Source: Oscillospiraceae bacterium
GTDB taxonomy: Bacteria; Bacillota; Clostridia; Oscillospirales; Ruminococcaceae
Direction of reading: 5' to 3'
Assembly (NCBI GenBank): GCA_009777725.1
Contig: WRLG01000014.1
Coordinates: 1 to 64,000, forward strand
Length of the DNA stretch: 64,000 nt
Shown: piece by piece, positions 10,240 through 35,455 of the stretch
Position numbering within the stretch: position 1 is the stretch's first letter
Layout of the letters: the number at the start of each line of letters is the position of its first letter
Notes under the pieces: generated by a model
What the model was told of the DNA's origin: nothing
The model's database searches: none
Seen by the model: only the letters and a program-made list of their open reading frames with translations
Program-made: the position numbers and the translations under genes

Positions 10240-10267
10240 TTGAAAATTTTATGAGAGGAGAAAGTCA

Positions 10268-11367: not shown

Positions 11368-11454
11368 GGGTGGGAGATGGCAATTTGGGCAGATAATATT
11401 TATAAAAAATCTTGACATTATGACTTAAAAGTGGTATAATAATCCTAAATCAAA

Positions 11455-12185: not shown

Positions 12186-12281
12186 TTTAAAAACTAAATT
12201 ATATGGATGTGTTTATAAAGATATGCCGTATGATTAAGTGTGATATCCCTGAGATTGAGCCGGAAAGCGGGGGAATTATAG

Positions 12282-15545: not shown

Positions 15546-16334
15546 ATGAAAATGAATATTGGCATCGGAATAGCTAAATGTTTAAAAAACGATAATATTT
15601 ACGGAGTTCGAGTTGAAGAGATACAAAAGGATAAGTGGGAAGCCACTTGGGCGTTTCCAATTAAACCTGAAGTTGCGAAACGCGAGGGTTATACCGAGCA
15701 AGTCTTTCCCAAAAATCTGACCTACGGTAAGGAATACCCCGGTTGCCCTTATTGCAAGAAATTTGAGAAATTGAACACAACTGCATCTGGCTCCGGTTCT
15801 CAAAAAGCAGACGTATACTTGGCTATTGATTTATCAGGAAGTATGAGCGGTGAGCCGCTGACTGAATCTAAAAAAGCGATGATAGACTTTGTAAAGCAGA
15901 TGAACTCTAATCAAATCAGAATCGGAGTCATTGCATTTGCAACAAGCTTGTCGCACGTTTTACCCTTAACCAATGATTACAACAAAGTAATTAATTCAAT
16001 AAACGGGCTTTACATAGGACTCGTGGGTAACGGAAATGCCGCAGAGCCATTCACTCTTGCGTATCCTAACCTTAAAAATGGCAAAGGGATGCGTTATATT
16101 TTAGTTTTAACCGATGGTGAATGGTGCGATTTAGATGAAAGGTCAGCTATTGCGGAAGCGAAAAAGTGTCACGCCGCTGAAATAGAGGTGGTAGCTCTTG
16201 GATTCGGGAGCGTGAAAAAACAATTCTTAGATGCTATTGCTTCGTCGAAAGAGTATTCAAAGTTAACTACTCTAAACAACCTTGCAGATGCGTTTACAGG
16301 ATTTGCAAAAGATATCGGAATAAAAAAGAAATAA
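15546..16334 (+). CDS. vWA-domain protein with an N-terminal Cys-containing segment
   Basis: CPYCKK; DVYLAIDLSGSMSGEPLTESKKA MIDAS (DLSGS), LVLTDGEW. Confidence 0.85.
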   Translation: MKMNIGIGIAKCLKNDNIYGVRVEEIQKDKWEATWAFPIKPEVAKREGYTEQVFPKNLTYGKEYPGCPYCKKFEKLNTTASGSGSQKADVYLAIDLSGSMSGEPLTESKKAMIDFVKQMNSNQIRIGVIAFATSLSHVLPLTNDYNKVINSINGLYIGLVGNGNAAEPFTLAYPNLKNGKGMRYILVLTDGEWCDLDERSAIAEAKKCHAAEIEVVALGFGSVKKQFLDAIASSKEYSKLTTLNNLADAFTGFAKDIGIKKK

Positions 16335-16364
16335 TTTTAAATTGTGTACATAAGGGGAATTGCA

Positions 16365-17417
16365 ATGAAAAATGCTGTTAAACAAACATTACGCAAAATT
16401 AATAACCATTTCAAGTTGGAGGAACCGGAGATATTCAATAATTCTACAAGGTTTAAAACCGCGTTTAAAGCCGCGCTTAAAGATGTTAAAATCGAACCGG
16501 ACGGCGATGTGATTCGCCATTTGCTTGAAATTGCTATATGCAAAATGCAAGCTTATTCCCGCCTGCAACAGGGTTTAAGCAAGAATGAATTTATCATTGA
16601 TAATCTTATTTTGGAAATGAAGAAGTATTATCCTGATGAAAATACCGTCAGAATGGTAATTGAAAGTATAGCGGAGGAATTGTTTGGGTATATGCCCGTT
16701 TCTACTCCCGCTCCAAATACCGCTTTTAACCCACCCCCGCAACAAACCGGGACACAACCGAAGCCAATACCTCCGCAAACCGACCGCATAGAATTCGGCG
16801 GATATAACTGGCGGGTGCTTGACATTCAGAATGATGCCGCATTAATTATTACGGAAAATATTATAGACCAACTAGCTTATCACAATAAATTTACTGCTGT
16901 AACGTGGGCTGACTGCGATTTAAGGAAATACCTAAACGGAGAATTTTTAAGTAATTTCAGCCCATTTGAACTTGCAAAAATTATTCCTATGCCAAATTTG
17001 AACCCTAATAATCCGTGGTGGGGAACAAACGGCGGAGCGGAAACAACAGATAAAGTGTTCCTTCTTTCTCTTCAAGAAGTTTGCCGTTATTTCGGAGACA
17101 GCCGAGCGCAACTGAACAGTAGTGTTAAAAAATCTTTAGCGGCTGAAATAAAGAGGGAATATTGGGATAAAGGTAAAACCAAATGGGATGAGTGGAAAGA
17201 TTTTTTTCTTGATAATGAGATTTATGTCACTGATGAAAACAATTCCAAAAGAATGTCAAAATATGGTAATAAATCTTCGTGGTGGTGGCTTCGGTCGCCC
17301 GGCCTCGACAGCGGTAGTGCCGCCCGTGTCGGTTTTGGCGGTTTTGTCAACGTCAATGGTGACTTTGTCAATTTTGGTGTCGGCGGTGTTCGTCCCGCTT
17401 TGTGGCTGAATCTGTAA
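16365..17417 (+). CDS. DGR variable protein 1 (shared N-terminal domain, DUF6273/C-lectin-like C terminus)
   Basis: SWWWLRSPGLDSGSAARVGFGGFVNVNGDFVNFGVGGVRPALWLNL*; start after an AAGGGGA ribosome-binding site. Confidence 0.85.
   Translation: MKNAVKQTLRKINNHFKLEEPEIFNNSTRFKTAFKAALKDVKIEPDGDVIRHLLEIAICKMQAYSRLQQGLSKNEFIIDNLILEMKKYYPDENTVRMVIESIAEELFGYMPVSTPAPNTAFNPPPQQTGTQPKPIPPQTDRIEFGGYNWRVLDIQNDAALIITENIIDQLAYHNKFTAVTWADCDLRKYLNGEFLSNFSPFELAKIIPMPNLNPNNPWWGTNGGAETTDKVFLLSLQEVCRYFGDSRAQLNSSVKKSLAAEIKREYWDKGKTKWDEWKDFFLDNEIYVTDENNSKRMSKYGNKSSWWWLRSPGLDSGSAARVGFGGFVNVNGDFVNFGVGGVRPALWLNL
17277..17417 (+). repeat. DGR variable region VR1
   Basis: Shares the invariant frame tcgtggtggtggcttcggtcgcc...gttcgtcccgctttgtggctgaat with four other copies; differences concentrated at codon positions 1-2 of NNY codons. 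Confidence 0.85.
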
Positions 17418-17444
17418 TCTTTTATCTGTTAATCTGATAAATCG

Positions 17445-17530
17445 TTAAATCCCGCCCGTGGGCGGCAATCTCCCGCCGCCGTGCGGCGGAATCTAATAAT
17501 CCCGCGTAAGCGGGTCGCGATTTTTGGAAA
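17445..17530. repeat. Tandem stem-loop array downstream of VR1
   Basis: ccgccc/gggcgg, ccgccgc-cgt-gcggcgg, cccgcgtaagcggg separated by aatct; recurs after VR2. Confidence 0.8.
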
Positions 17531-17586
17531 ATGAGGATTCATTGTTTTTGAAGGAATAATTTTTAAAATATAAGGAGGCAATTATC

Positions 17587-18903
17587 ATGGCATTTTCAAA
17601 GGAGAAGAACACAGTCCGGCTTGCGAACGGACAAGCTTTGACAATCAAGAAACCACTCGGCGACGGAGGGCAGGGAATAGTTTACAAGGTTGACTATTCG
17701 GGCAAGGAGTATGCCTTGAAGTGGTACAAGTCCAACTATTTGAAGGATTTGGACGAACGGCATAAAAACGGCAAGCAGCTTTTCAAGGAGAATATTCAGG
17801 CAAATATTGACAAAGGAAGCCCGAACGATAAGTTTTTGTGGCCCGAAGCGTTGACGGAAGAAATTGACGGTTGCTTTGGCTATATCATGAAACTTCGCCC
17901 GCAGGGGTATTACGATTTTAACGATGTTTACAACAATAAAGTCCCGTTTAAAAGCTTTCGGGCGACGGTTGAGAGTGCATTGGGAATCGTAAATGCGTTT
18001 AGTTCATTACATAAAAAAGGTTACTTTTATTTGGATTTAAACGGCGGCAACTTTTTCATTGATACCAAAAACGGCGATGTGCTTATCTGCGATAATGATA
18101 ACGTAACCGCTGAACCTAAATATAATTTAGGTCTGCCCGGCTATATCGCCCCCGAATTGGTAAGAGGCGAAAAGGGGGCGAAATCTAATGCCTTGACTGA
18201 TGCACATTCTCTTGCGGTTGTTTTGTTTCGGCTGTTTATGCGGCACGACCCCCTTATGGGCAGAAACTATTGCTCGAGCGTGGTTCTTACGGCGGCTAAG
18301 GAAAAGGAGTTATACGGAACAAAACCTGTCTTTATCTTTGACCCCGCTGATGATTCAAACCGCCCTGTTTTAAACCTGCACACAAACCCCATAAAGCTTT
18401 GGCCCATTTACCCTGAATATGTCAGAAAAGCTTTTATTGAAACATTTTGCGAGGGTATGAAAACCCCGGCGAAACGCCTTATTGAATCGGCTTGGGCAAA
18501 AGTCTTGTTAAAGTTAAGCGACGACATTTTAACCTGCACCTGCGGTACGGATATTCTTTGGAGCAATAAGGAAAATGCGGTGATTTGCCCAAAATGCGGG
18601 GTAAACTTAGGAAAGCCGCTTCATATTGATTACAACGGATACAGCATTAACCTTTTCCCCGGCAACAAAATTTACAGCACGCATATTGACGATGATTTCA
18701 ATAAACGAAGCGATTACGGATTAATTCTCGCCAATAAGCAAGACCCGAAAAAATGGGGAATAAAAAATATGTCCGGCGGCAATTGGAGCGTTAAAAAGCC
18801 TTCGGGTGAAACCGTAACAATTGCTTCAGGCAAAATAATTTCAATAGCCGAGGGAACGGAAATAGAGTTGCCCGGCGGCAAAAAACTTATCATTAGCGCG
18901 TAA
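17587..18903 (+). CDS. TerY-P-type protein kinase with C-terminal zinc ribbon
   Basis: LGDGGQGIVYKV...YALKWY, YLDLNGGNFFI catalytic loop, VLICDNDNV metal-binding motif, CTCGTDILW...CPKCG. Confidence 0.82.
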   Translation: MAFSKEKNTVRLANGQALTIKKPLGDGGQGIVYKVDYSGKEYALKWYKSNYLKDLDERHKNGKQLFKENIQANIDKGSPNDKFLWPEALTEEIDGCFGYIMKLRPQGYYDFNDVYNNKVPFKSFRATVESALGIVNAFSSLHKKGYFYLDLNGGNFFIDTKNGDVLICDNDNVTAEPKYNLGLPGYIAPELVRGEKGAKSNALTDAHSLAVVLFRLFMRHDPLMGRNYCSSVVLTAAKEKELYGTKPVFIFDPADDSNRPVLNLHTNPIKLWPIYPEYVRKAFIETFCEGMKTPAKRLIESAWAKVLLKLSDDILTCTCGTDILWSNKENAVICPKCGVNLGKPLHIDYNGYSINLFPGNKIYSTHIDDDFNKRSDYGLILANKQDPKKWGIKNMSGGNWSVKKPSGETVTIASGKIISIAEGTEIELPGGKKLIISA

Positions 18904-18945
18904 TTTAGGCTAAACTAAAAAAATAAATTTATGGAGGAATTTTTT

Positions 18946-19734
18946 ATGGCAACGAAAACAGCAGTAAATCCTTTGGAGGGAGTTGGTAAACCTACTAAGC
19001 CAAACCTTGTCGTGTTTTTTGTAATTGATAAGTCTTATAGTATGGCGGGGGCAAGCATTAACGCAGTAAATCACGCTATGAGGGAGATAATACCTATCCT
19101 AAAAGATATAGACGGGCAGGATGCAGATTTAAAGGTGGCGGCACTTACTTTTTCAGCAGGGGCGGAGTGGGTTTATTCCAATCCGCAAGATGCAGAAGAA
19201 CTCGCATGGGTAGATGTTGAGGCTGATGGTTGGACTGACTTCGGTGCGGCTTGTGATGAACTGTGCAGTAAAATGTCGAGAAGTGCATATATGGCATCAA
19301 AAGCAGGTTATAAAAAACCCGTTGTTATTCTTCTGACGGACGGCGAACCTACAGATAATTGGGAGCCTAAGTTAGCGAAATTGAAACAAAACAGATGGTT
19401 TCAAGTCGCATTTAAAATTGGTCTTGCTGTTGATGATGCCAACGAGGATGTGCTTGGCGAATTTGTCGGAACAAAGAAAGGTAAGAACGGCAAATACGAG
19501 GGCGTTTACCGAATTGATGATGCAAACAAACTTAAAACAGCAATTAAGGTTGTTATCGTCACATCATCTGAAATCGGCAGCAGAAGTATGCCCATTGATA
19601 TTAACGTAGCCGATGCAGACCTTGATGATAAGCAACATAAAGACCTTCACGACATGATTGAAGAGAAACTTGATGACGATGATGCGTTCAGCGATTACGC
19701 CGCAACTTCTGATGATGATGAGGAGTGGGATTAA
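18946..19734 (+). CDS. TerY-like vWA protein
   Basis: VVFFVIDKSYSMAGASINAVNHAMREI, VVILLTDGEPTDNW. Confidence 0.87.
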   Translation: MATKTAVNPLEGVGKPTKPNLVVFFVIDKSYSMAGASINAVNHAMREIIPILKDIDGQDADLKVAALTFSAGAEWVYSNPQDAEELAWVDVEADGWTDFGAACDELCSKMSRSAYMASKAGYKKPVVILLTDGEPTDNWEPKLAKLKQNRWFQVAFKIGLAVDDANEDVLGEFVGTKKGKNGKYEGVYRIDDANKLKTAIKVVIVTSSEIGSRSMPIDINVADADLDDKQHKDLHDMIEEKLDDDDAFSDYAATSDDDEEWD

Positions 19735-19735
19735 T

Positions 19736-20776
19736 ATGGCTGATTTCAGCAAATTTAAAGCTAAATGTGAGGGATTTAGCCATAAAAAGAACGGAACAGT
19801 TTGTCAAGACTCGACTGATGCTCATAAATCGGATAAAATTGCTATATGCGTTGTAAGCGACGGACACGGCAGTGAGAAATACTTTCGGAGCGACAAGGGT
19901 TCTGATACAGCGGTTAAGGTTGCGATTGAAGCTGTTAAGCAGTTTGATTGGAAGCAGAGGTATAACACTTCCGACAAAACCAAAAAAGACGTTAAAGTGG
20001 AAGCTTTGTCTATGGAAAACTATAATAAACTATTCAATGAGCTTGCTCGTTATATTGTTGCTCAATGGTTTTTTGCGGTTGAAGCCCATTGGAAAGAGAA
20101 CACTCCGAATGAAGCTGAACAAGTCCTTTTTGAAAAACACTTTGCCGGCAAAGACGTAAATATTACAAAAATATACGGTGCGACCTTGATTATCGGTGTT
20201 ATGACCGCTCATTTTAGTTTTGTTGTTCAAATAGGCGATGGAGCGGCTGTGATTATTCCGCAAAACGGCGAGGCGTTTATTCCGCCGGAAACTGTAGACG
20301 AAAATCAAGGAGCAGGGCAAACCAATTCGCTTTCAAGCTCCAATTGTTTAGAGCGATTCCGCTATTATTATACCGAAGAACCGCTGAAAGCCATTGTTGT
20401 AACAACCGATGGTGTAACGGATTCTTACGGCGGTAACGATGGCAAGGATTTATTGCGGTTCTGCGAAAAGCTGGTTGACCTTCATATAGAAGATGATAAA
20501 CAGGCGAAAAGATTTTTAAATGATTGGCTACCTAGATTATCCGAACAAGGCAGTCAAGACGATATGTCTGTAGCGGGGATTTATGATGCTTCATCAAGAG
20601 TAACAGAATCTACGCCCGATAATATCGCTCCCGAATCGGAAATCATGTCTGCGGCTGAGCCGGAGGACAAGCCTGAACCTGAACCTGAACCTAAATCAGA
20701 TACTGAATCTGAAAACGACAATCCAAGCGAAGGAGAAACGGTAAATGAAAAGTCAAATACGGCAGGCGTTGAATAA
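19736..20776 (+). CDS. PP2C-like Ser/Thr phosphatase
   Basis: GTVCQDS, VVSDGHGSEKYF, VQIGDGAAVI, VVTTDGVTDSYG, SQDDMSVAGI. Confidence 0.85.
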   Translation: MADFSKFKAKCEGFSHKKNGTVCQDSTDAHKSDKIAICVVSDGHGSEKYFRSDKGSDTAVKVAIEAVKQFDWKQRYNTSDKTKKDVKVEALSMENYNKLFNELARYIVAQWFFAVEAHWKENTPNEAEQVLFEKHFAGKDVNITKIYGATLIIGVMTAHFSFVVQIGDGAAVIIPQNGEAFIPPETVDENQGAGQTNSLSSSNCLERFRYYYTEEPLKAIVVTTDGVTDSYGGNDGKDLLRFCEKLVDLHIEDDKQAKRFLNDWLPRLSEQGSQDDMSVAGIYDASSRVTESTPDNIAPESEIMSAAEPEDKPEPEPEPKSDTESENDNPSEGETVNEKSNTAGVE

Positions 20777-21725
20777 AATCATGGGCAGTTTCGGAGAATC
20801 GGCTTTTACTAATGCGAGGCAATTTAAAGCTGTTTTGTCTGATGTTCCCATTGAAACTAACGCTAAAAAAATCCGAAGCCTGTTAAACACGGCAATGGTT
20901 GAAATGCGGGCTTATTCACGGTTAAAGGCGGGGTTTGCAAAAAGCAGTCCGTTCATCGTTGATAATTTAATCAATGAAATGACGGAGGATTATGAAATTA
21001 ACCCCGCTTCTGCCAAAACAGTAATTGAGAGTATAGCCGAAGAATTATTCGGCTATACTCCTGTATCTGTCCCCGTTGCCAATACACCGCCCGCACCTAA
21101 TCCGCAACAACCCTTAAACCCGCAACCAATGCAAACTCCAATTGATGTTGACTTGCTCAAACAACAGCTTCTCACAGAAATAATGGGGCAAATTTCATCA
21201 GACCCGCAGTTTTCACAGAAAATGCCGCCCCAACCTCTGCCGACTAAAAATCCGGGTGCATCGTCAATACCGAAAATCGGTAGCATAATCCCATTCGGAG
21301 GTTATGATTGGCGAGTGCTTGATGTACAAAATAGTAAAGTTCTGCTAATAACAAAAGACGTTATAGAGAAACGCAAATTTGATGCTTCAACCAATAATTG
21401 GACAAAGTGTGAATTGAGAAAGTATCTTAACGGAGCATTTTACAATAGTTTTGATACAAGCGATAAATCGAGAATTGTTAGTTTTAACAGCGACAATGTT
21501 TTTTTATTGAGCGTTGATGAAGCAAGAAAATATTTTAAAAATGATTCTGATAGAGCGGCAAAATATGGAAAAGAAGCTTCGTGGTGGTGGCTTCGGTCGC
21601 CCGGCGACTATGGTGACAGTGCCGCCGGCGTCCTTTCCGACGGCAGTGTCTACGTCCTTGGCATCGACTTCTACGACGTGTCGGCGGTTGGCGGCGTTCG
21701 CCCCGCTTTGTGGCTGAATCTGTAA
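20745..21725 (+). CDS. DGR variable protein 2
   Basis: Shared N-terminal domain; SWWWLRSPGDYGDSAAGVLSDGSVYVLGIDFYDVSAVGGVRPALWLNL*. Confidence 0.85.
   Translation: MKSQIRQALNKIMGSFGESAFTNARQFKAVLSDVPIETNAKKIRSLLNTAMVEMRAYSRLKAGFAKSSPFIVDNLINEMTEDYEINPASAKTVIESIAEELFGYTPVSVPVANTPPAPNPQQPLNPQPMQTPIDVDLLKQQLLTEIMGQISSDPQFSQKMPPQPLPTKNPGASSIPKIGSIIPFGGYDWRVLDVQNSKVLLITKDVIEKRKFDASTNNWTKCELRKYLNGAFYNSFDTSDKSRIVSFNSDNVFLLSVDEARKYFKNDSDRAAKYGKEASWWWLRSPGDYGDSAAGVLSDGSVYVLGIDFYDVSAVGGVRPALWLNL
21579..21725 (+). repeat. DGR variable region VR2
   Basis: Same invariant frame as VR1; two codons longer. Confidence 0.85.
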
Positions 21726-21759
21726 TCTTTAATCTTTTAATCTGATAAATCGTTAAATC

Positions 21760-21840
21760 TCTAAATCCCGCCCCGTGGGCGGTAATCTCCCGCCGCCGTG
21801 CGGCGTAATCTATTCCCGCGGAGCGGGTCGCGATTTTTTG
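21760..21840. repeat. Tandem stem-loop array downstream of VR2
   Basis: Near copy of 17445-17530: ccgccccgtgggcgg, ccgccgccgtgcggcg, cccgcggagcggg, then tcgcgattttttgaaaaatgagg. Confidence 0.8.
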
Positions 21841-21862
21841 AAAAATGAGGTGTTTTTCAACT

Positions 21863-22252
21863 ATGAACGAAAAGAAGAGTGATTTGCTAATTGTAACCAA
21901 AGCAAAGGATTTGTGCAGTTATATTATGATAATCACGCAGAAATCACCGAAACAGTTTCGTTTTACATTCGTGAGCAGATTGCAGAATCTTTCGCTTGAT
22001 ATAATAGAGTGCATTTTCCGTGCCAATGATATTTTTATCGGCAAGGGCTTTGAAAAAAATGCGGAAAAGCGGCTTGAATTTCAGCATAAAGCTCTGACAA
22101 GTCTTAAAATACTCGCGTATATATCAGAAATTTCAATGGCACAAATGTGCATACTCCCTAAGCAATATGAGCAAATATCCAAATTAACCACAGACTGCCA
22201 AAGGTTATTGGGAGCGTGGATTAACAGCGATAAAAAGCGTTTTTCTTCCTAA
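21863..22252 (+). CDS. avd: Avd-like DGR accessory protein (four-helix bundle)
   Basis: AKDLCSYIMIITQKSPKQFRFTFVSRLQNLSLDIIE...ILPKQYEQISKLTTDCQRLLGAWINSDKKRF; directly upstream of the RT. Confidence 0.8.
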   Translation: MNEKKSDLLIVTKAKDLCSYIMIITQKSPKQFRFTFVSRLQNLSLDIIECIFRANDIFIGKGFEKNAEKRLEFQHKALTSLKILAYISEISMAQMCILPKQYEQISKLTTDCQRLLGAWINSDKKRFSS

Positions 22253-22374
22253 GGCGTGTTTGCGGAAACGGCGGGAAAACACTTGCCGACAGAGCCGGAA
22301 ACGCTGTTTATGCTTTTCTTGTTTTTTGAAAGCGGTATATTGCCGCTTTCACTTTCGGCGGAACAGGAGTAATT

Positions 22375-23472
22375 ATGTCTGATTATGAAAAAATGCACAG
22401 TTTTGAAAATTTATATAAAGCTCATTTAGTGGCAAGGCGGGGAAAACGCAATAAGGCGGAGGTTATTCGCTTTGAAATGAATCTATCGGAGAATTTATGT
22501 AAATTGCAGGAAACTCTGAAAAATAAAACCTACAAACCGCAGAAATATAAGCATTTTATGATATACGAGCCAAAGGAGCGTTCTATTTTCGCACCTGATT
22601 ATGCTGACAGGGTAGTTCAGCATTGTTTATGCGACAACATAATAATGCCTAAGCTTGAGCCAAGGTTAATATATGATAACGCCGCTTGCCGCATAGGAAA
22701 AGGCACACATTTTTCAATTGACAGATTATCGGTTTTTATGCGTGATTTTTATAAGAATCACGGAACAAGCGGATATTTTTTGAAATGTGACATCATGAAA
22801 TATTTTTACAGCATTGACCATAATGCGTTAAAACAAAAGCTGTCAAAAGTATTTAATGAAGAAGTTTACAGCTTGCTTTGCAGTATTATCGACAGCTATG
22901 AGGTTACGGACGGGGTTGGACTTCCTTTAGGCAACCAAGCAAGCCAATGGTTTGCCCTGTATTATCTTGATGCCGCCGACAGGCTCATTAAAGAGAAGCT
23001 GAGGATAAAATACTATGTCCGATACATGGACGATTTTATTCTTCTTCACCATGACAAGGAATATTTACGCCATTGTCTTGACGAAATACGAAGAATTTGC
23101 GGTGTTGAATTAAAAATTGAGTTGAATAACAAAACGCAGATTTTTGCCGTTAAAAACGGAGTTGACTATTTGGGCTGGCACTTTTATTTGACTGATACGG
23201 GCAAGGTTATTCGCAAATTGAAAACGCCGAATAAGCGGCGATTAAAGCGGCGTATGAAATTATTGCAGGAAGAATATCGCACCGGCATAATTGATATTGA
23301 TGATGTTAAACGCAGTTTGGTTTCAACTCACGGGCATTTGATTCATGGTCACACATATAGGTTTCGCGAAAAATTATACGGCAAAACTGCTTTTTCACGT
23401 TCGCAAGAAAACAATGCCATAAAGGGAGAGAAAATTAATCATGAAAGACCAAATAATCCAAGCATTACATAA
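22375..23472 (+). CDS. DGR-type reverse transcriptase
   Basis: FMIYEPKERSIFAPDYADRVVQHCLCDNI, CDIMKYFYSIDH, GLPLGNQASQWFALYYLD, YVRYMDDFILL (YMDD), GVDYLGWHFY; no maturase or HNH extension. Confidence 0.9.
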   Translation: MSDYEKMHSFENLYKAHLVARRGKRNKAEVIRFEMNLSENLCKLQETLKNKTYKPQKYKHFMIYEPKERSIFAPDYADRVVQHCLCDNIIMPKLEPRLIYDNAACRIGKGTHFSIDRLSVFMRDFYKNHGTSGYFLKCDIMKYFYSIDHNALKQKLSKVFNEEVYSLLCSIIDSYEVTDGVGLPLGNQASQWFALYYLDAADRLIKEKLRIKYYVRYMDDFILLHHDKEYLRHCLDEIRRICGVELKIELNNKTQIFAVKNGVDYLGWHFYLTDTGKVIRKLKTPNKRRLKRRMKLLQEEYRTGIIDIDDVKRSLVSTHGHLIHGHTYRFREKLYGKTAFSRSQENNAIKGEKINHERPNNPSIT

Positions 23473-24580
23473 AATAAAAGAACATTTCGGAACAGAGGTG
23501 TTTAATAATCCGAGGCAGTTTAAAGCTGTTCTTTCGGATGTACCGTTTGAGACCGATGCGAAAAAAATACGTAAACTTCTCGAAGTTGCTATATGCGATA
23601 TGCGGGTTTACTCTCGCTTGGAGGCAGGGCTGGCGAAGAATAATCTTTTTGTAGTCGGCAATTTGAGCAATGAGATGGCAACAGATAATTTTATGGATAT
23701 AGGTGTTGCTCAAATGACGATTGAGGCTATAGCGGAGGAGTTATTCAGCTATAAGCCTGTTTCGCCTGCCCAAGCTAATAATAATCCACCTACACAACAA
23801 CAACAATCACAACAACAATCACAATATCAACAATCTGCTCAACAACCTGCCCCAGAAAATCAGCCTCTAGATATGGAAGCATTGGGAGGGCAACTATTAG
23901 CTAAACTGATGGGCAGAATCACATCTGCAAATATTCCCATACCTCAATCTTTGCCGCAGGTTAAAATGCCGAACTTATTCAATTCTAACGATAGTCAAAT
24001 TATTGCTCCTAAAATCGGCAGTATAATCAAATTCGGCAGTTATGATTGGCGAGTGCTTGATGTGCAAAACGACAAAGCATTAATCATTACTGAAGAAATT
24101 ATTGAGAATAAAGCGTATCATAGTGATTTGGTTGATATAACATGGGCTGACTGCGATTTGAGAAAATATCTGAACGGCGAATTTATTAACAATGCTAAAA
24201 AATTCAGCCCAAATGATAGAGATAGAATTACCCCTGTGGTGAACAGAAACGCAGATAATCAATGGTATAACACAAACAGCGGCAGTGATACAACGGACAG
24301 CATTTTCTTATTGAGCTTGGAGGAAGTGCGTGAATACTTTGGTGGCAGTATGAAAAAATTACGAAATGTAAGAGTACCAGATGGGTGGTTTTCTGATAAA
24401 AATGATTCTAAGAGGGTGGCAAAATATGGTAAACAAGCTTCGTGGTGGTGGCTTCGGTCGCCTGGTATCTACAGCACTAGTGCCGCCATTGTCAATATTG
24501 TCGGTTCTGTCTACGTCAATGGTAACTATGTACACAATGTTCACGGCGGTATTCGCCCTGCTTTGTGGCTGAATCTTTAA
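23441..24580 (+). CDS. DGR variable protein 3 (with Q-rich linker)
   Basis: Shared N-terminal domain; SWWWLRSPGIYSTSAAIVNIVGSVYVNGNYVHNVHGGIRPALWLNL*. Confidence 0.85.
   Translation: MKDQIIQALHKIKEHFGTEVFNNPRQFKAVLSDVPFETDAKKIRKLLEVAICDMRVYSRLEAGLAKNNLFVVGNLSNEMATDNFMDIGVAQMTIEAIAEELFSYKPVSPAQANNNPPTQQQQSQQQSQYQQSAQQPAPENQPLDMEALGGQLLAKLMGRITSANIPIPQSLPQVKMPNLFNSNDSQIIAPKIGSIIKFGSYDWRVLDVQNDKALIITEEIIENKAYHSDLVDITWADCDLRKYLNGEFINNAKKFSPNDRDRITPVVNRNADNQWYNTNSGSDTTDSIFLLSLEEVREYFGGSMKKLRNVRVPDGWFSDKNDSKRVAKYGKQASWWWLRSPGIYSTSAAIVNIVGSVYVNGNYVHNVHGGIRPALWLNL
24440..24580 (+). repeat. DGR variable region VR3
   Basis: Same invariant frame. Confidence 0.83.
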
Positions 24581-24632
24581 GATTTAATCTTATTAAATCT
24601 TGCCTAAACAACAAAAGGAGAGAAAATTAATC

Positions 24633-25784
24633 ATGAAAGACCAAATAATCCAAGCATTACATAAAATTAAAAACAGCTTCGGAACAGAGGTGTTTAATAA
24701 TCCGAGGCAGTTTAAAGCGGTGCTTTCGGATGTACCGTTTGAAACCGATGCGAAAAAAATACGTAATCTGCTTAATATTTCTATTTGTGAAATGCAGGTT
24801 TATTCACGGTTAAAGGCGGGGTTTGCAAAAAGCAGTCCGTTCATCATTGATAATTTAATCAATGAAATTACGGCGGATTATGAAATTAACCCCGCTTCTG
24901 CCAAAACAGTAATTGAGAGTATAGCGGAGGAGTTATTTAACTATAAGCCCGCTTCGTCTGCCCAATCTAATTATAATCCGCCTATACAGCAACAATCCCA
25001 ACCCCAACAACCTATTTTGCAAAGCCAGCCTATAGATATGGAAGCATTAGAAGAGCAACTGTTAACTAAACTAATGGGCAGAATCACATCTGCAAATATT
25101 GCTATTCCCCAACCTGCACCGCAAGCTAAAACGCCCAACTTGTTCAATTCTAATGATAACCAAATTATTGCCCCCAAAATCGGCAGTATAATCAAATTCG
25201 GCAAATATAACTGGCAGGTGCTTGATGTTCAGAATAACGCCGCATTAATCATTACCGAAGAAATTATTGAGAAGAAAGCGTATCATAGTAACAGGACTGC
25301 TATAACATGGGCTGACTGCGATTTGAGAAAATATCTGAACGGTGAATTTATTAACAATGCTAAAAATTTCAGTCCAAATGACAAGGCGAGAATTATCTCT
25401 GTAATGAACGGAAACAGAGAAAACCAATGGTATGATACAAACGGCGGCAATGAAACAACGGACAGCATTTTTTTATTGAGTTTGTACGAACTTGTGAAAT
25501 ACTTTGGAGATAGCGGTGATTTGGAAAACGGCAAGGGTTGGAAATATGAGAGCGGCAAAAATGTATTGGCATATGGAAATGACCGTCGGTATATACACGA
25601 CCAGTATGATAAAAGCAGGGTGTCAAAATATGGTAACAAAGTTTCGTGGTGGTGGCTTCGGTCGCCCGGCTACAGCAGCGATTATGCCGCCTTTGTCTAT
25701 GATGATGGTTTTGTCCGCATCATTGGCTATGGTGTCGACATTGATTCCGGCGGCGTTCGTCCTGCTTTGTGGCTAGATTTGTAA
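24633..25784 (+). CDS. DGR variable protein 4
   Basis: Shared N-terminal domain; SWWWLRSPGYSSDYAAFVYDDGFVRIIGYGVDIDSGGVRPALWLDL*. Confidence 0.85.
   Translation: MKDQIIQALHKIKNSFGTEVFNNPRQFKAVLSDVPFETDAKKIRNLLNISICEMQVYSRLKAGFAKSSPFIIDNLINEITADYEINPASAKTVIESIAEELFNYKPASSAQSNYNPPIQQQSQPQQPILQSQPIDMEALEEQLLTKLMGRITSANIAIPQPAPQAKTPNLFNSNDNQIIAPKIGSIIKFGKYNWQVLDVQNNAALIITEEIIEKKAYHSNRTAITWADCDLRKYLNGEFINNAKNFSPNDKARIISVMNGNRENQWYDTNGGNETTDSIFLLSLYELVKYFGDSGDLENGKGWKYESGKNVLAYGNDRRYIHDQYDKSRVSKYGNKVSWWWLRSPGYSSDYAAFVYDDGFVRIIGYGVDIDSGGVRPALWLDL
25644..25784 (+). repeat. DGR variable region VR4
   Basis: Same invariant frame; followed by a shortened stem-loop remnant cctgcataagcgggttgcgatttttgaaaaatgagg. 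Confidence 0.83.
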
Positions 25785-25836
25785 TTCTATAATCCTGCAT
25801 AAGCGGGTTGCGATTTTTGAAAAATGAGGATATACT

Positions 25837-26871
25837 ATGAGTTCTTTAACCAATCCCAAGCAACGCTATTATTACTCGTTGCTTTCAGAAAATGACAAGA
25901 AAATATATGATGATATTGTTTCGGCTTGGAGGGATTTGAATAGAAATGTTAAAATTCCCAACTCCCCGAGTTGCGGCATTTCAACTATGTTAGAGTATAT
26001 TCGTTATGACATTCCCAAGCTGTTTTATGTTGATTTTAACGGGATTTCTTATAGAAATCATTTTAATTCGGTTACGTTGAACACGAGGTTTCACTATACA
26101 GATTCAGAGATTGCTAATCTGAAAAAACAGCTGAATAAGGCGATTAAGTCATTTACTTGCAATATTTTAAATGAGAAGATGTCACCTTTTGAGCGTGAAT
26201 TATCGGCACATGACTTTTTAGCAAGTACGGTAAAATACGATTTTCAAAGCAAGAACGATTTCGAGAACGCATCTATTGTAGCCCCATTGCTAAAGAATCG
26301 CGGGATTTGCGAGGGATATGCTAAGGCATTTAAACTGCTGTGTGATGAAATCGGAGTTAGTTCGCTTGTTGCTTTCGGGACGGCAGTAAATAGTCTGAAT
26401 TACGTTAAAACAGGAACAGGCGAATATGAAGGACACGCTTGGAATATAGTAAAAATCGGCGGGAAATGTGCTCATGTTGATGTAACATGGGATTCTGTTA
26501 ACCCTTTACAAAATAATTCAAAAATTCGTTATGACTACTTTAATCTTGCCGATGATGAAATATCCAAAGACCACGTTTGGGACAAAAATAAATACCCTAA
26601 ATGCGACACTCACAATATGAGCTACTATCATGTCAATGATTATTATATTACAAGTAAGGGCGATTTTGAAAAATATATAATAAATCAGATTAAGAATAAA
26701 GTCGCCTCTTTTAATGTCAAATTTAGCTTTGAATTCGAGGACAATAAGGAGATTACCCGATATATTTCTAAAGCAATGTCAAAGTATCCTCTAATTCTCA
26801 AAACATGGAGTTATTCATTAGGGGTTTCCTATAACAAAGCAATGCGAACGGCGTTAATAACTATTGAGTAG
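25837..26871 (+). CDS. Transglutaminase-like superfamily protein
   Basis: RGICEGYAKAFKLLCDEIG (Cys), GHAWNIVKIGG (His), HVDVTWDS (Asp). Confidence 0.75.
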   Translation: MSSLTNPKQRYYYSLLSENDKKIYDDIVSAWRDLNRNVKIPNSPSCGISTMLEYIRYDIPKLFYVDFNGISYRNHFNSVTLNTRFHYTDSEIANLKKQLNKAIKSFTCNILNEKMSPFERELSAHDFLASTVKYDFQSKNDFENASIVAPLLKNRGICEGYAKAFKLLCDEIGVSSLVAFGTAVNSLNYVKTGTGEYEGHAWNIVKIGGKCAHVDVTWDSVNPLQNNSKIRYDYFNLADDEISKDHVWDKNKYPKCDTHNMSYYHVNDYYITSKGDFEKYIINQIKNKVASFNVKFSFEFEDNKEITRYISKAMSKYPLILKTWSYSLGVSYNKAMRTALITIE

Positions 26872-26895
26872 GTAAAAATTGATTGGAGATATTAT

Positions 26896-27924
26896 ATGAA
26901 AAACCAAATAATCCAAGCATTACATAAAATAAAAGACCATTTCGGAACAGAGATATTTAATAATCCGAGGCAGTTTAAAGCTATTCTTTCGGATGTACCA
27001 TTTGAAACTGATGCGAAGAAAATCCGTAATCTGCTCAATATTTCTATTTGTGAAATGAAGGTTTATTCACGTTTGGAAAAAGGGTTAGCAAAGAATAATA
27101 CTTTTGTCGTTGGTAATCTCATTGATGAAATGGTAAGAGATTATTATCCTGATGAAAATACTGTTAAAATAGTAATAGAAACTATGGCAGAGGAGTTGTT
27201 CGGCTATATTCCTGTATCTGTCTCCACTACCAATACACCGCCCGTACCTAATCCGCAACAACCCTTAAACCCGCAACCAACGCAAGCTTCCATTGATGTT
27301 GACTTGCTCAAACAACAGCTTCTCACAGAAATAATGGGGCAAATTTCATCAGACCCGCAATTTTCTCAGAAAATGCCGCCTCAACCTCTGCCGACTAAAA
27401 ATCCGGGTGCATCGTCAATACCGAAAATTGGCAGTATAATCCCGCTCGGAGGTTATGATTGGAGAGTGCTTGATGTACAAAATAGTAAAGCCCTGCTCAT
27501 AACAAAAGACGTTATAGAGGAACACCCCTACAATACAAAGTATACAGGCGTTACATGGGAAAAATGCACTTTGCGGCAATATCTTAACGGCGAATTCTAT
27601 AATTTGCTCGGACAAGATAAATCACGCATTTCTCGTGAAAGGGTTGTTAATTCAGATAACCCTAAATATATTACACCTGGTGGAAATGACACTAACGATA
27701 AAATATTTTTATTGAGCATGTCAGAAGCAAATAAATACTTTAAAAATGATTCTGATAGAATGTCAAAATATGGTAATAAAGCTTCGCAGTGGTGGCTTCG
27801 GTCGCCTGGCTACGGCAGCCTTTATGCCGCCTATGTCCTCGGTGGCGGTAGTGTCGACGTCTATGGTAAAGATGTCAACTATGACGACTACGGCGTTCGT
27901 CCCGCTTTGTGGCTGAAAATATAA
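26896..27924 (+). CDS. DGR variable protein 5
   Basis: Shared N-terminal domain; SQWWLRSPGYGSLYAAYVLGGGSVDVYGKDVNYDDYGVRPALWLKI*. Confidence 0.83.
   Translation: MKNQIIQALHKIKDHFGTEIFNNPRQFKAILSDVPFETDAKKIRNLLNISICEMKVYSRLEKGLAKNNTFVVGNLIDEMVRDYYPDENTVKIVIETMAEELFGYIPVSVSTTNTPPVPNPQQPLNPQPTQASIDVDLLKQQLLTEIMGQISSDPQFSQKMPPQPLPTKNPGASSIPKIGSIIPLGGYDWRVLDVQNSKALLITKDVIEEHPYNTKYTGVTWEKCTLRQYLNGEFYNLLGQDKSRISRERVVNSDNPKYITPGGNDTNDKIFLLSMSEANKYFKNDSDRMSKYGNKASQWWLRSPGYGSLYAAYVLGGGSVDVYGKDVNYDDYGVRPALWLKI
27784..27924 (+). repeat. DGR variable region VR5
   Basis: Same invariant frame; TGG to CAG change near its start and a divergent 3' end. Confidence 0.78.
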
Positions 27925-27948: not shown

Positions 27949-28671
27949 ATGGAAAAATATATTCAAAGAGATTATTCTGAATACGAAGCACTGAGGGTGC
28001 AGTATGCAAACACGGCTGACCCGCAAATAAAGGAGCAAATACGGGCTTTGGGTGAGCTTGTTAATTTGAAAAACGACTTGGATTTAACAAACGGCGACCC
28101 GAATACGAAACAATTAGGCGGCAGATACGGCGATGTCAAGGGCAAAATAGCGGGTTATCATGCTCATCATATTCCTCCGAAATCGGTAAGCGACCATAAT
28201 ATGAACACCCTGCCCGCTATCTGCATGACAAGCGAAGATCACAGAATGACCGCAAGCTACGGGAACAGAATGAAAGCGGTGTTTTCACCGGAGGACAAGA
28301 ATGACAACACAACATATAAAGAGAAGTTAATCAAGCAAATTAACGATGGCAATTATGCAGATGCTTTCAGAAATGAAGTATATGAAATTAAAATGAAATT
28401 CGGCGATAAATACGACGGTGCGATTAAACAGGCGATTGAAGCAAACGCCGATTATCTGAAAGAATTCGGCAACCCGCATAAGAATCAAGGCATTGAAGCG
28501 TTCAGGGAGAAGTCGGCTGATAAAACATCAAATCAAACGGCAAATAAAGGAATAGAAAGCTTCCGCAGCAAAGAGGGCAGTCAAATGCCTCAACGCAATC
28601 AACATAGCCAAAATGCCCAAAACGGAAATCAATCAAGCGGACAAGCCAGCGGAAGCGGTCAAGGGAGGTAG
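27949..28671 (+). CDS. HNH/EndoVII-like putative nuclease effector
   Basis: AGYHAHHIPPKSVSDHNMNTLPAICMTSEDHRMTASYG resembles HHxPP...DHxxT...G toxin nuclease motifs. Confidence 0.55.
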   Translation: MEKYIQRDYSEYEALRVQYANTADPQIKEQIRALGELVNLKNDLDLTNGDPNTKQLGGRYGDVKGKIAGYHAHHIPPKSVSDHNMNTLPAICMTSEDHRMTASYGNRMKAVFSPEDKNDNTTYKEKLIKQINDGNYADAFRNEVYEIKMKFGDKYDGAIKQAIEANADYLKEFGNPHKNQGIEAFREKSADKTSNQTANKGIESFRSKEGSQMPQRNQHSQNAQNGNQSSGQASGSGQGR

Positions 28672-28677
28672 TTTACT

Positions 28678-29676
28678 TTGAGGGAACAGATTATACAGGT
28701 GTTACACAAAATCAAGGAAAGTTTCGGTACGGATGTGTTTGCGAACCCGAGGCTTTTTAGTGCTGTGCTTGCTGACGTTAAAATTGAAACAGATGCTAAA
28801 AAAATCCGCAACCTGCTTAATATTGCTGTTCGGGATATTCATATATATCAACGATTGGAAAAAGGATTAGCAAGCAACAATAAATTTATAATCGACAACC
28901 TTATTTGTGAAATTTCGTCAGACTATATGATAGAAAAAACTGCTTCGCAAGCAGTAGTTGAAGCTTTTGCCGATTTGTTAGGATATATTTCACCGCCTGT
29001 CGCAACTGCTCGTAAAGTGGTGGTAAATCCTTTAGAGGGGTTAATACCTACAAGACCAGTTCTTATCGTATTTTTTGTAATTGATAAATCCGGCAATATG
29101 GCGGGAGCAGGCATTAACGCACTAAACCACGCCATGAGGGAGATGATACCTATTCTCAAAAACATAGACGGGCAAGGTGCAGATTTAAAGGTTGCGGTTC
29201 TTACTTTCTCAGCGGGAGCAGAGTGGCTTTATTCAGAGCCTCAAGATGTAGAGGATTTTGAATGGTATGACATTGAAACGAATCTTGATTATGATTGGGA
29301 TAACTACACTTCTGATTTTGGTGCGGCTTGCGATGAACTATACGTTAAAATGTCAAGAGAGGCATACATGAGCTCGAGAAAAGGTTACAAAATCCCCATT
29401 ATTATACTTATAACAGCCGGAAAACCTACGGATAATTGGCAACCATCTTTAGCGAAATTAAAGAAAAACAGATGGTTTAAAGCTGCATTTAAAATCGGAC
29501 TTGCGGTTGATGATGCCAACGAGAATGTGATTGGCGAATTTGTCGGAACAAAGAAAGGTAAGAATGGCAAATATGAGAGGGTTTACCAACCTTATGATGC
29601 AAATAAGCTAAAAAAATTATTTAGGGGTGAATACTCTTCGTATGTGTGTAGTCATGAGGATGAGGATTGGGATTAA
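28678..29676 (+). CDS. Fusion: variable-protein N-terminal domain + TerY-like vWA with damaged MIDAS
   Basis: N terminus MREQIIQVLHKIKESFGTDVFANPRLF matches the variable proteins; C terminus aligns to 18946-19734 but DKSYS is DKSGN and LTDGEP is ITAGKP. Confidence 0.82.
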   Translation: MREQIIQVLHKIKESFGTDVFANPRLFSAVLADVKIETDAKKIRNLLNIAVRDIHIYQRLEKGLASNNKFIIDNLICEISSDYMIEKTASQAVVEAFADLLGYISPPVATARKVVVNPLEGLIPTRPVLIVFFVIDKSGNMAGAGINALNHAMREMIPILKNIDGQGADLKVAVLTFSAGAEWLYSEPQDVEDFEWYDIETNLDYDWDNYTSDFGAACDELYVKMSREAYMSSRKGYKIPIIILITAGKPTDNWQPSLAKLKKNRWFKAAFKIGLAVDDANENVIGEFVGTKKGKNGKYERVYQPYDANKLKKLFRGEYSSYVCSHEDEDWD

Positions 29677-29753: not shown

Positions 29754-31064
29754 ATGAACATATCAACCCGCCTACTCTACGGCAACACAGTAACGCAAAA
29801 TACCCCACCTGCACAAACAAGCGGAGCTGTCAAACTCCACGGTACTTTTGCGGGCAAACCGTCAGCTTTCACGCTCAACAATGACACATTAAGCAAACAC
29901 ACAATGCTCATCGGCGGAACAGGTTGCGGCAAAACAACGCTCTTTTATCATTTTATTTCGCAGTTAAAAAAATCAATGACGAACGATGATGTGATGATAA
30001 TTTTTGATAGCAAGGGTGATTTTCATTCAAAGTTTTTCAACAAAACAACGGATATAATTATCGGAAATTCAAAGCAATATTCGGCTGAATCGGCGCATTG
30101 GAATATCTATAAAGAAATCCTCGCCGATGGCTTGGAAGAGCGGGATTTTATCATAAACACACAAGAAATCTGCAAGTCATTCTTTGAGGAACGCACTAAA
30201 AATACAACAAACGCTTTCTTCCCAAACGCCGCAAGAGATTTATTGGCGGCAATTATAATCACCTTTATTCGTGAGGGCAAAAAAGACTCCGCAATAAAAA
30301 AAGAGTTTTTCTACAACAGCAAGCTTAAAGAATTTTTAGATTTATCCGATTCGCAAATGATTATGGATTTGCTCGGCGACAGCCCCGATGCTAATGCAAT
30401 TTTATCCTACATAAGCGGCGACAACGCACAATCGCAGGGCGTTTTATCTGAAATGTATTCCGTCATAAGAGAGATTTTAATCGGCGTTTTTGCCGAACGA
30501 GGTATGTTTTCCATGCGTGAATTTGTCCGTAATAAGGGAAAACGAACCCTATTCATTGAGTACGACCTTTCAATCGGCAGTATGCTAACCCCTGTTTATC
30601 GTTTAATGTTCGACCTCGCACTCAAAGAAGCTCTCGGGCGAAACAAGCCGCAGGGCAACGTCTACCTTGTTTGCGATGAGTTTAAATTGCTCCCTCATTT
30701 GAAACACATTGACGATGGCGTTAATTTCGGGCGTAGTTTAGGCGTGAAAGTTTTTGCGGGTATTCAGAGTATCGAGCAATTATACGAAATCTACGGGCAA
30801 AGCCGAGGGCGGAATATTGCGGCGGGGTTTTCGTCAGTTTACGCATTTCGCTCAAATGATACAGCGACACGAGATTTCGTCACAGGTCTATTCGGCAAAA
30901 ATATCGTTTTAGAAAAATATCAGCGTTTGGATAATCAAATTATCGAAGAAAAACGGAACGGACAAACTGTCGAGGACTGGGATATGAACAGCCTGAAAAT
31001 CGGCGAAGCGATTGTAGGTTTGCCGTTTTCACAGCCGTTTAGGTTTTATTTTGATAACTATTAA
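29754..31064 (+). CDS. T4CP/TraD-like coupling ATPase
   Basis: MLIGGTGCGKTTLFYHF Walker A, IIFDSKGDF, VYLVCDEFKLLPHL Walker B. Confidence 0.8.
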   Translation: MNISTRLLYGNTVTQNTPPAQTSGAVKLHGTFAGKPSAFTLNNDTLSKHTMLIGGTGCGKTTLFYHFISQLKKSMTNDDVMIIFDSKGDFHSKFFNKTTDIIIGNSKQYSAESAHWNIYKEILADGLEERDFIINTQEICKSFFEERTKNTTNAFFPNAARDLLAAIIITFIREGKKDSAIKKEFFYNSKLKEFLDLSDSQMIMDLLGDSPDANAILSYISGDNAQSQGVLSEMYSVIREILIGVFAERGMFSMREFVRNKGKRTLFIEYDLSIGSMLTPVYRLMFDLALKEALGRNKPQGNVYLVCDEFKLLPHLKHIDDGVNFGRSLGVKVFAGIQSIEQLYEIYGQSRGRNIAAGFSSVYAFRSNDTATRDFVTGLFGKNIVLEKYQRLDNQIIEEKRNGQTVEDWDMNSLKIGEAIVGLPFSQPFRFYFDNY

Positions 31065-31227: not shown

Positions 31228-32577
31228 TTACTCACCAAATTCCCAACCCCTTGAATTATCTGCTCGTTTAATATCCTCCACTCCCGAAATCGGTGTACCG
31301 AGACTTACAAGTTTTTGTTCTCCTGCTTTCCTTTCGGCGTTAAATTTTTTCAAAAGGTCCTCATGTTTTTTCAATTCGGCGGCATACTGTTCTCTGCGTT
31401 GGGCATCTTCAATAGTGTCTATTAATGCGATTGCTGATTGCAGTGCTGCCTTTAATTGAGTTTCCTGTTGCTGTAGCTCGGCTTTATGCCTGCTGAGTTC
31501 AATTTCACGGTTGTTCAGCAATACCGTTTGTTTATCAATCCACTTTTTGATGTTTCGGTTTCGTTTTATTTGAATTACAAGCTCATTTTTTTCTTCGTTA
31601 AGTGCAAACCTGTCCGTTTCAATCGTAGCTTTGTCTGCTTCAACCTCGGCTTTAAAACTCTTGGCTTCGCTCATAATTTTCTTAGCTTGTTTTTTAATCT
31701 CATCACGCTTCCGCTGCGATTCCGCATTGCGTTTTAACGTTTCTCGATGTAAGCGGTAGTCGGCGGTGTTCATGTGTTTCGTTTGATGGTCGGGTTCGTT
31801 TATAATCGTAATGCCCAATTTATCCTCAGCTATTTCAATCCATTTTTCCCGGCAGATTTTTGTGAAAGTAACTTGGCGAGTATTGTAAAAATAATCCTCG
31901 CCTTTAACAGTTTTTTTGATGGGCTCGTCGATCAGATTTCCGGCAATATCAATGCCATAAACACCTTCTTTTAAATCGGGGCGAGGCAGTTCGATTCCCG
32001 CCGCTTTCATTCCCCGTGTCATTGAAAACTTAATCGTCCCATCTGATTGTGCGTAATGCCAAACGCCCCTCTGCTGAGCGTGAGGAGTTGCCTCATCATA
32101 ATGCTCCGCTGAGTTCAAAATTTTAAAATGGCTTCCGTATTTCTCATTAAGCCAAATCCTAAAGTCTTTGAATATGATATGAAAATCATCTTCCGAAGGA
32201 TGTTCTTCAGTATTTCCAATTTGCAAAATCATTTCATATGGCTTTGGTTGTTTAGCAATCCATTCCTCAAGTGTTCCCATATTTTCAGCGTATTTATATT
32301 GACCGTTTTTTATGTAACGATTCTTTTGGGCGAGGTAAGCAGGTTCCAATGTTGTCTCATAATATTTCTGTTCAACCTCCTCGAATGTCATATAGCTTCC
32401 GCCCAATGTATCAGCAAAATAATATTCGCCCTGATAAATATCATAATGCATATTGTCAACAGTGCGGCACGGATCAATATATTTTGACCTGTTTATATCA
32501 AATTTTCGATCGTTATGTTTAACTGACATTTTACTCGATGACGTCCCTCCGTGCAAGCTGGCTTTCATATCATTCAT
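31228..32577 (-). CDS. MobV/Pre-type relaxase
   Basis: HYDEATPHAQQRGVWHY motif; coiled-coil C terminus. Confidence 0.82.
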   Translation of the reverse strand: MNDMKASLHGGTSSSKMSVKHNDRKFDINRSKYIDPCRTVDNMHYDIYQGEYYFADTLGGSYMTFEEVEQKYYETTLEPAYLAQKNRYIKNGQYKYAENMGTLEEWIAKQPKPYEMILQIGNTEEHPSEDDFHIIFKDFRIWLNEKYGSHFKILNSAEHYDEATPHAQQRGVWHYAQSDGTIKFSMTRGMKAAGIELPRPDLKEGVYGIDIAGNLIDEPIKKTVKGEDYFYNTRQVTFTKICREKWIEIAEDKLGITIINEPDHQTKHMNTADYRLHRETLKRNAESQRKRDEIKKQAKKIMSEAKSFKAEVEADKATIETDRFALNEEKNELVIQIKRNRNIKKWIDKQTVLLNNREIELSRHKAELQQQETQLKAALQSAIALIDTIEDAQRREQYAAELKKHEDLLKKFNAERKAGEQKLVSLGTPISGVEDIKRADNSRGWEFGE

Positions 32578-34204: not shown

Positions 34205-35455
34205 ATGGCAAACATAAGAAAAAGGGGAAACACATACCAAGTTGATGTATTAGAGGGGCGTACCGCTGATGGCAAAAGAATACGACGCACAGCTACATTC
34301 ACCCCCGAACCCACTATGACACCTAAACAAATCGAAAAAGCATTGAATAAATTTGTTGTGAATTTTGAAGAACAAGTCAAGCAAGGATTGTATCAAGATG
34401 GGAAAATTAAGTTCCAAGAATATGCCGAACACTGGCTTGAAACTACGGTCAAACGCTCCAACAAACACCGCACACATATTACATATGAAGACATTTTGAA
34501 AAAACGCATATATCCTGTGCTTGGTCATTTGCGTCTTGAGGACATTCGCCCCGCACATATCAAGGCATTATTGCGTGACTGGGAAGAGAACGCAACAAAC
34601 GCAAAAACGGGTACACCGCTAAGCGGGAAAACACTTAATAACTATTTCCGCGTGTTGTCGAGTCTTTTCAGTTGCGCAGTAGAAGACGGGCGGTTGAACA
34701 ATAACCCTTGCAAGAACGTAGCAGCGCCGAAATTTAAGCAAAAGCGAGTCGAATATTTGCAGGACATTCATGTTCCCATATTCCTCGAAATGGTTGACAA
34801 TGCCGCCGATGACAATGCGGTGACAGATTTTCCGCTTGCGATAAAAATACTTTTGTTCTCAGGATTACGGCGAGGAGAATTGCTCGGTTTAACTTGGTCA
34901 GCGGTTGATTTTAATAAAGGGCAGATTGATATTTCGACAACCTCTTTGTACGCACCGGACAGAGGCATCTACGCAGAAACTCCCAAAACTGACAAATCGG
35001 CAAGGATTGTAAAACTCCCTGCCGAATTAATTTCTATGCTTGAAAATTACAGAGCAACTCAAAAAGAAATCGCCGCAAAATACGGCGACAAGTGGAATAA
35101 CAATGCGGGGTACATATTTACACAAAAATACGGAGAGCCGCTTCACCCCGATACGCTGACAGGCTGGCTGCGCAAACGCCTGATGCGGCACAACGCTAAA
35201 ATGAAAGAACTCGGAGAAACCGATAAAATTCTCCCCATGGTAAGTCCTCATGATTTAAGACATACCCATGCGAGTTTGCTCATTTCGGAGAATACGAACA
35301 TCAGAACAATATCTTCACGGCTCGGACACGCCGCCGTTACAACAACATTGAACACATACAGCCATGAAATAAAAAGTGCAGAGATCGCCGCCGTTGAACT
35401 TCTTGAGAGCAAGTATCTTAGGAAACACGTACAAAAAACAACGCCTCCGAATTAA
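34205..35455 (+). CDS. int: Tyrosine recombinase/integrase
   Basis: FSGLRRGELLGLTW, HDLRHTHASLLI, LGHAAVTTTLNTYSH. Confidence 0.93.
   Translation: MANIRKRGNTYQVDVLEGRTADGKRIRRTATFTPEPTMTPKQIEKALNKFVVNFEEQVKQGLYQDGKIKFQEYAEHWLETTVKRSNKHRTHITYEDILKKRIYPVLGHLRLEDIRPAHIKALLRDWEENATNAKTGTPLSGKTLNNYFRVLSSLFSCAVEDGRLNNNPCKNVAAPKFKQKRVEYLQDIHVPIFLEMVDNAADDNAVTDFPLAIKILLFSGLRRGELLGLTWSAVDFNKGQIDISTTSLYAPDRGIYAETPKTDKSARIVKLPAELISMLENYRATQKEIAAKYGDKWNNNAGYIFTQKYGEPLHPDTLTGWLRKRLMRHNAKMKELGETDKILPMVSPHDLRHTHASLLISENTNIRTISSRLGHAAVTTTLNTYSHEIKSAEIAAVELLESKYLRKHVQKTTPPN

Follow-up and report, generated by a model that had tools for sequence, protein, structure and literature searches.

A TerY paralog with a degenerate metal site that may connect hypervariable proteins to a kinase-TerY-PP2C triad

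A gene in a 64,000-nucleotide stretch of contig WRLG01000014.1 from an Oscillospiraceae bacterium (assembly GCA_009777725.1; hereafter, the window) encodes a protein in which the N-terminal domain of five hypervariable proteins (N-domain) is fused to a TerY-like VWA that has lost residues of its metal site (MIDAS). Through this protein, diversified sensors may be physically linked to a phosphorylation switch that is related to known anti-phage systems. A preliminary description of the gene had proposed an N-terminal domain common to five variable proteins, followed by a TerY-like remainder, and both the identities and the coordinates bear this out. The gene is the last of the following series:

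15546-16334, + strand, second VWA protein with a canonical DLSGS MIDAS (PF00092, 2.8e-19)
16344-17417, + strand, V1, N-domain plus hypervariable DUF6273 (PF19789), NNY codons
17587-18903, + strand, Ser/Thr kinase of the triad, C-terminal Cys-pair region zinc ribbon-like (PF00069, 3.9e-13)
18931-19734, + strand, TerY paralog of the active type, MIDAS intact, start probably ATG 18946
19736-20776, + strand, PP2C phosphatase of the triad (PF13672, 8.9e-35)
20745-21725, + strand, V2, N-domain plus hypervariable DUF6273, NNY codons, overlapping the end of the PP2C gene
21845-22252, + strand, DGR accessory protein Avd (phrog_3206 'Avd protein of DGR', 6.1e-24; PF22296, 3e-9, just under cut-off)
22375-23472, + strand, DGR reverse transcriptase, YMDD present (PF00078, 1.6e-15; phrog_1423, 1.9e-119)
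23441-24580, + strand, V3, N-domain plus hypervariable DUF6273, NNY codons
24600-25784, + strand, V4, N-domain (from 24633) plus hypervariable DUF6273, NNY codons
25837-26871, + strand, transglutaminase-fold protein (PF01841, 5.2e-9)
26896-27924, + strand, V5, N-domain plus hypervariable DUF6273, NNY codons
27949-28671, + strand, ORF of 240 aa, AHH-like motif (GYHAHHIPP), no confident family
28678-29676, + strand, fusion of an N-domain and a MIDAS-degenerate TerY-like VWA, 332 aa, TTG start, frame open

The fusion starts 6 nt behind the stop of the preceding gene. Its residues 1 to about 105 are 52% identical to V5 (BLASTP, E 3e-39), and a six-way alignment of its N-domain with those of V1 to V5 gave identities of 43 to 58%. 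Residues 111 to 316 match the TerY of the triad at 145 of 207 positions (70% identity; BLASTP, E 7e-105) and PF00092 at 1.7e-7, and in a tree the fusion and the window TerY are sisters with a support of 100/99. The protein thus belongs to the VWA fold of the TerY group, and the sister relationship indicates a duplication within this lineage. A model of the full-length protein was poor (pLDDT 57). The following features were read from the gene:

28663-28668, + strand, Shine-Dalgarno sequence GGGAGG, 9 nt 5' of the TTG, read directly
28678-28995, + strand, N-domain, residues 1-106, all-alpha with 7 helices (six-copy alignment profile, 2.2e-51)
29008-29625, + strand, TerY-like VWA, residues 111-316
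29083-29097, + strand, MIDAS motif 1, DKSGN for DxSxS
29308-29313, + strand, position of the MIDAS Thr, ambiguous in alignments, Thr-Ser behind a 6-7-aa insertion
29413-29421, + strand, MIDAS motif 3, TAG for TDG
29650-29673, + strand, acidic-aromatic C-terminal tail SHEDEDWD, retained (SDDDEEWD in TerY)

A metal-binding TerY has the MIDAS pattern DxSxS...T...D. In the fusion, Asn replaces the second Ser of DxSxS and Ala replaces the Asp of TDG, as the preliminary description had stated and as comparison with the window TerY and the set of 43 intact TerYs confirmed. The Thr is ambiguous because the insertion stands directly before it; in the sequence YTSDFGAA, BLASTP keeps T and MAFFT places S. 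Since D, S, S, T and D are invariant in all 43 triad TerYs (the window TerY and those of 42 related triads), the substitutions are not chance changes at free positions, and the loss of otherwise invariant residues supports the earlier suggestion that the fusion may be metal independent. The MIDAS was changed at 3 of its 5 columns versus 1 of the 17 other invariant columns (hypergeometric p ~0.024, calculated by hand), but p is ~0.12 when the Thr is counted as kept, and we do not rely on the claim that the MIDAS was hit more than the rest of the protein. Near the C terminus, about 44 aa are absent, including the segment VTSSEIGSRS of the window TerY; VTSSxIGSxS is present in most TerYs, and a contact with the triad may therefore be lost. 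The C terminus is acidic and has an aromatic residue at or near its end in 53 of 54 TerYs, among them the fusion and the MIDAS-dead copies described below. To our knowledge, no role has been described for this tail; it is a candidate ligand. Examples in the window are the tail of TerY (19708-19731) and that of the fusion.

The N-domain (about 107 aa) was predicted by AF2 to form seven helices (pLDDT 92, pTM 0.83), and on this model it is confidently predicted to be all-helical and looks non-enzymatic. No PDB or viral structure matched it at E <= 0.001 and no Pfam family scored above the cut-off; a match to the filovirus VP24 profile (Pfam, E 0.009, below the cut-off) was taken as chance. With a profile of the six window N-domains, one outside protein in 398 genomes of the family and one in 396 genomes of the order passed E 1e-3, and both adjoin a kinase-TerY-PP2C triad. 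When the neighbourhoods of 42 triads were read and the profile was iterated, 33 ORFs with relatives of the N-domain were found in 32 of the 42 related triad loci, 30 of them at most 300 bp from the triad. As a check on profile drift, a profile built from outside triad-locus sequences only was run on the 117 window ORFs and 300 shuffles. Indeed, V2 to V5 and the fusion were recovered with E values of 2e-8 to 2e-6 (fusion, 8.7e-7) and nothing else in this set was significant; V1 was missed (E 0.33). Partnership with kinase-TerY-PP2C triads is a general property of the N-domain. Elsewhere it is fused to BspA-type LRR, RCC1 repeats, Sel1/TPR or membrane segments, and in a viral contig to FtsK. These many unrelated recognition-type partners, the adjacency to triads and the all-helical, non-enzymatic-looking model support the earlier proposal that the shared domain acts as an assembly or recruitment module. 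An N-domain on a TerY was found in none of the 42 related triad loci and was seen only in the window. A sequence filed as viral (IMGVR_UViG_3300019373_000145) encodes all components of a triad and, in addition, two proteins with an N-domain, of which one is fused to an FtsK-type motor.

The five proteins that share the N-domain with the fusion probably belong to a diversity-generating retroelement (DGR). Genes for a reverse transcriptase and Avd are present together with hypervariable variable regions (VR), and 231 of 240 VR codons in the window and a second locus of the same genome (L009) end in C or T, versus 49% upstream, which is the mark of adenine-templated NNY diversification. A template repeat (TR) was found neither in the window nor, by scans with 5' and 3' anchors, in the assembly, and could sit in an assembly gap. 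We therefore call the system DGR-like and, judged from the sequences, probably a DGR; it may use a lost or unassembled template. A candidate for the missing TR (C1:232906) was a truncated DUF6273 remnant. The variable regions of 16344-27924 and L009 have two main lengths, 29 and 31 codons. L009 itself (contig C1, 12665-19514) has three further DUF6273 variable-region genes, in which zinc-ribbon/coiled-coil N-termini replace the N-domain, and a gene for an AAA+trypsin-like protein (10096-12597, - strand) lies near them. The fusion had been described as the strongest link between the DGR targets and the triad. This is fair for the locus, but it is not the sole link: the genes of V2 and PP2C overlap, that of V1 stands before the kinase gene, and triads are in general flanked by N-domain genes.

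MIDAS-dead duplicates of TerY are not restricted to the window. In a family of the same class (f90), triads that contain two TerYs in tandem occur in two genomes, each with one copy intact and one dead, with DCSGN/GSAD/SSV in the dead copy of one genome (G1100) and ETSSA/GVAN/SNG in that of the other (G1214). In the tree, the two G1100 copies are each other's sisters and lie apart from the window pair, and the MIDAS was therefore lost at least twice, a lower bound since the two f90 cases may be one event. The dN/dS of dead versus intact TerY was 0.47 in G1100, too high to exclude relaxed evolution, and 0.24 in G1214. Both dead copies are free of an N-domain, which is thus no requirement for a dead VWA. 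Published cases are the second TerY VWA of Type III-A CoCoNuTs, which is without the MIDAS Thr (PMC11090510), and some VWAs of conflict systems that are without one or both Asp and for which alternative peptide recognition has been proposed (PMC7159879, section 8). The fusion and the separate MIDAS-dead duplicates suggest that a pseudo-TerY is a recurring part of such systems.

The fusion could be a relic, a duplicated TerY that was fused by accident and is decaying. Over 195 codons, fusion and TerY differ with a dN of 0.17 and a dS of 0.82 (33, 27 and 71 differences at codon positions 1, 2 and 3), giving a dN/dS of 0.20 (bootstrap 95% interval, 0.13 to 0.32); for two equal branches of which one is neutral, a ratio of at least 0.5 would be expected. 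We rejected the pseudogene reading because of this value. Moreover, the frame is open behind a good ribosome-binding site, and the deletion near the C terminus is in frame and spares the conserved tail. What would suit a relic is the deletion of 44 aa as such, the longer branch of the fusion in the tree (1.08 versus 0.29 for TerY), which indicates that constraint is relaxed but real, and the failure to find an ortholog: none was present among 398 genomes of the family, 2 of the genus, 392 of the class and 255 of the phylum (overlapping samples), none in plasmid or phage collections, and none in seed-pattern scans of genome contigs and viral contigs, which have a low sensitivity. The fusion is known from one genome only. 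Taken together, the fusion is not a decaying gene; decay is unlikely, and we regard a mere relic as very improbable.

The reading that we tentatively prefer, and to which we give slightly less than an even chance, is that the fusion is a pseudo-TerY that bridges two assemblies and docks the diversified sensors onto the triad by homotypic contacts like those of effector-associated domains (EADs); all physical contacts, the direction in which the signal runs and any role in defence are what we infer here. The N-domain of the fusion is the same plug as that of the hypervariable sensors and would probably join them through domain-to-domain contacts. Its VWA would no longer bind metal in the usual way, and most of the TerY surface and the acidic-aromatic tail, which are retained, could still let it take a TerY position in the complex of kinase, TerY and PP2C. 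Binding of a target by the variable domains would then change the state of the plug array, and the pseudo-TerY would relay this change to the phosphorylation switch, either by itself or by presenting its tail to the real TerY, whose MIDAS is intact and would take it up. We favour this reading because the arrangement matches the logic proposed for EADs (PMC7159879). The N-domain shared by V1 to V5 and the fusion, its relatives in most triad loci, the loss of a MIDAS that is invariant in 43 TerYs, the purifying selection, the kept tail and the independent dead TerYs of f90 support it, and there are precedents in the EAD coupling adaptors (PMC7159879) and the duplicated TerY VWA without the MIDAS Thr (PMC11090510). 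Against it stand the absent VTSSxIGSxS segment, the dead copies in f90 without an N-domain, the lack of N-domain-TerY fusions elsewhere, the restriction to one genome and the poor full-length model.

The missing segment would also suit an inactive mimic. The fusion could act as a dominant-negative brake which displaces TerY in the triad, or caps the sensor array with its N-domain, and holds the system off until needed. The loss of the MIDAS in an otherwise kept fold and the recurrence of dead duplicates would agree with such a brake, but simple competition at the TerY site needs no N-domain fusion, and we consider it unlikely. Purifying selection would equally be expected of a working second TerY whose VWA binds peptide metal-free or with changed specificity and serves a different client; alternative peptide recognition has been proposed for the related conflict-system VWAs without one or both Asp (PMC7159879, section 8). 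However, both the last Ser of DxSxS and the Asp of TDG are changed, the C-terminal segment is gone, and the replacements differ in the dead f90 copies (ETSSA and SNG in one of them), so that no single new site is preserved; we consider an altered binder rather improbable. Finally, since other N-domain proteins carry a recognition-type C-terminal part (LRR, RCC1, Sel1, DUF6273), a dead TerY in that position, still 70% identical to the real one, could be an integrated decoy that lures a phage protein directed against TerY, with the attack reported via the plug domain; a decoy role had also been suggested in the preliminary description. Dead TerY copies without an N-domain suggest a simpler partner role, we know of no phage inhibitor of TerY, and we consider a decoy quite improbable. 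A broader proposal, which we put forward as possible but doubtful, is a switchboard in which one plug is common to the hypervariable, DGR-diversified sensors and to a copy of the switch protein with a dead metal site. As a built-in bridge or bait, this copy would link an open-ended repertoire of recognition with an immune switch that works by phosphorylation.

Each component of the arrangement is of a known kind: a TerY-P system, a DGR and an adaptor. TerY-P triads (TerY-like VWA, PP2C and a Ser/Thr kinase with a zinc ribbon) are reported to act against T7-like phages (PMC7699616, PMC11090510). In the window, as in the related loci, the genes of the same three components are neighbours, but the window adds a DGR with five hypervariable proteins and the extra, fused MIDAS-dead TerY. 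Type III-A CoCoNuTs (PMC11090510) likewise have two TerY-like VWAs per operon, one with an intact MIDAS and one degenerate and shorter; there, however, the loss is confined to the middle Thr and the VWAs are separated by an ATPase, whereas the fusion has lost the second Ser of DxSxS and the Asp and is joined to the N-domain of the sensors. EADs of ternary/GTPase conflict systems are small helical domains proposed to be homotypic adaptors (PMC7159879) and, like the N-domain, occur in several copies, one on a core component and others on the effector or sensor proteins linked with it, the copies being related to each other within a locus. The N-domain is likewise small, mostly all-alpha and apparently non-enzymatic, with copies on the fusion and on V1 to V5, but it matches neither a Pfam family above the cut-off nor a solved fold and is likened to EADs by their published description, and it is partnered with TerY-P where EADs have MoxR/VMAP. 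Sensors diversified by a DGR are also known from conflict systems, for example the VWA-CLec targets (PMC10907252), in which a DGR hypervariable domain is joined to a signalling module as in the window. There, the VWA and the variable domain are in one protein and the partner is MoxR-VMAP; here, separate proteins have a common plug domain and the partner is TerY-P. As far as the literature and collections were searched, it is new that the N-domain generally accompanies TerY triads, and so is its fusion to a MIDAS-dead TerY beside a DGR, although Anantharaman et al. 2012 may already note parts of this. TerY-P triads are known as phosphorylation switches, and the N-domain is a concrete candidate for their input port: in most related loci it ties a recognition-type protein (LRR, RCC1, Sel1 or hypervariable DUF6273) to the triad neighbourhood. 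The fusion and the separate MIDAS-dead duplicates make two points testable, the route from sensor to TerY-P and the role of a dead VWA.

Of the remaining genes, the one for the transglutaminase-fold protein is probably part of the system, since homologs directly follow PP2C in other triads (L048, 11977-12918; L080, 9882-10883). The ORF directly upstream of the fusion is a possible nuclease effector. The region from 10495 to 35455 resembles an integrative mobilizable element that encloses the system, and by analogy it is likely that this element defends its host. Behind the fusion, it has the following genes:

29754-31064, strand not given, TraD-like ATPase
31228-32577, - strand, relaxase-like ORF
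34205-35455, strand not given, tyrosine-integrase-like ORF
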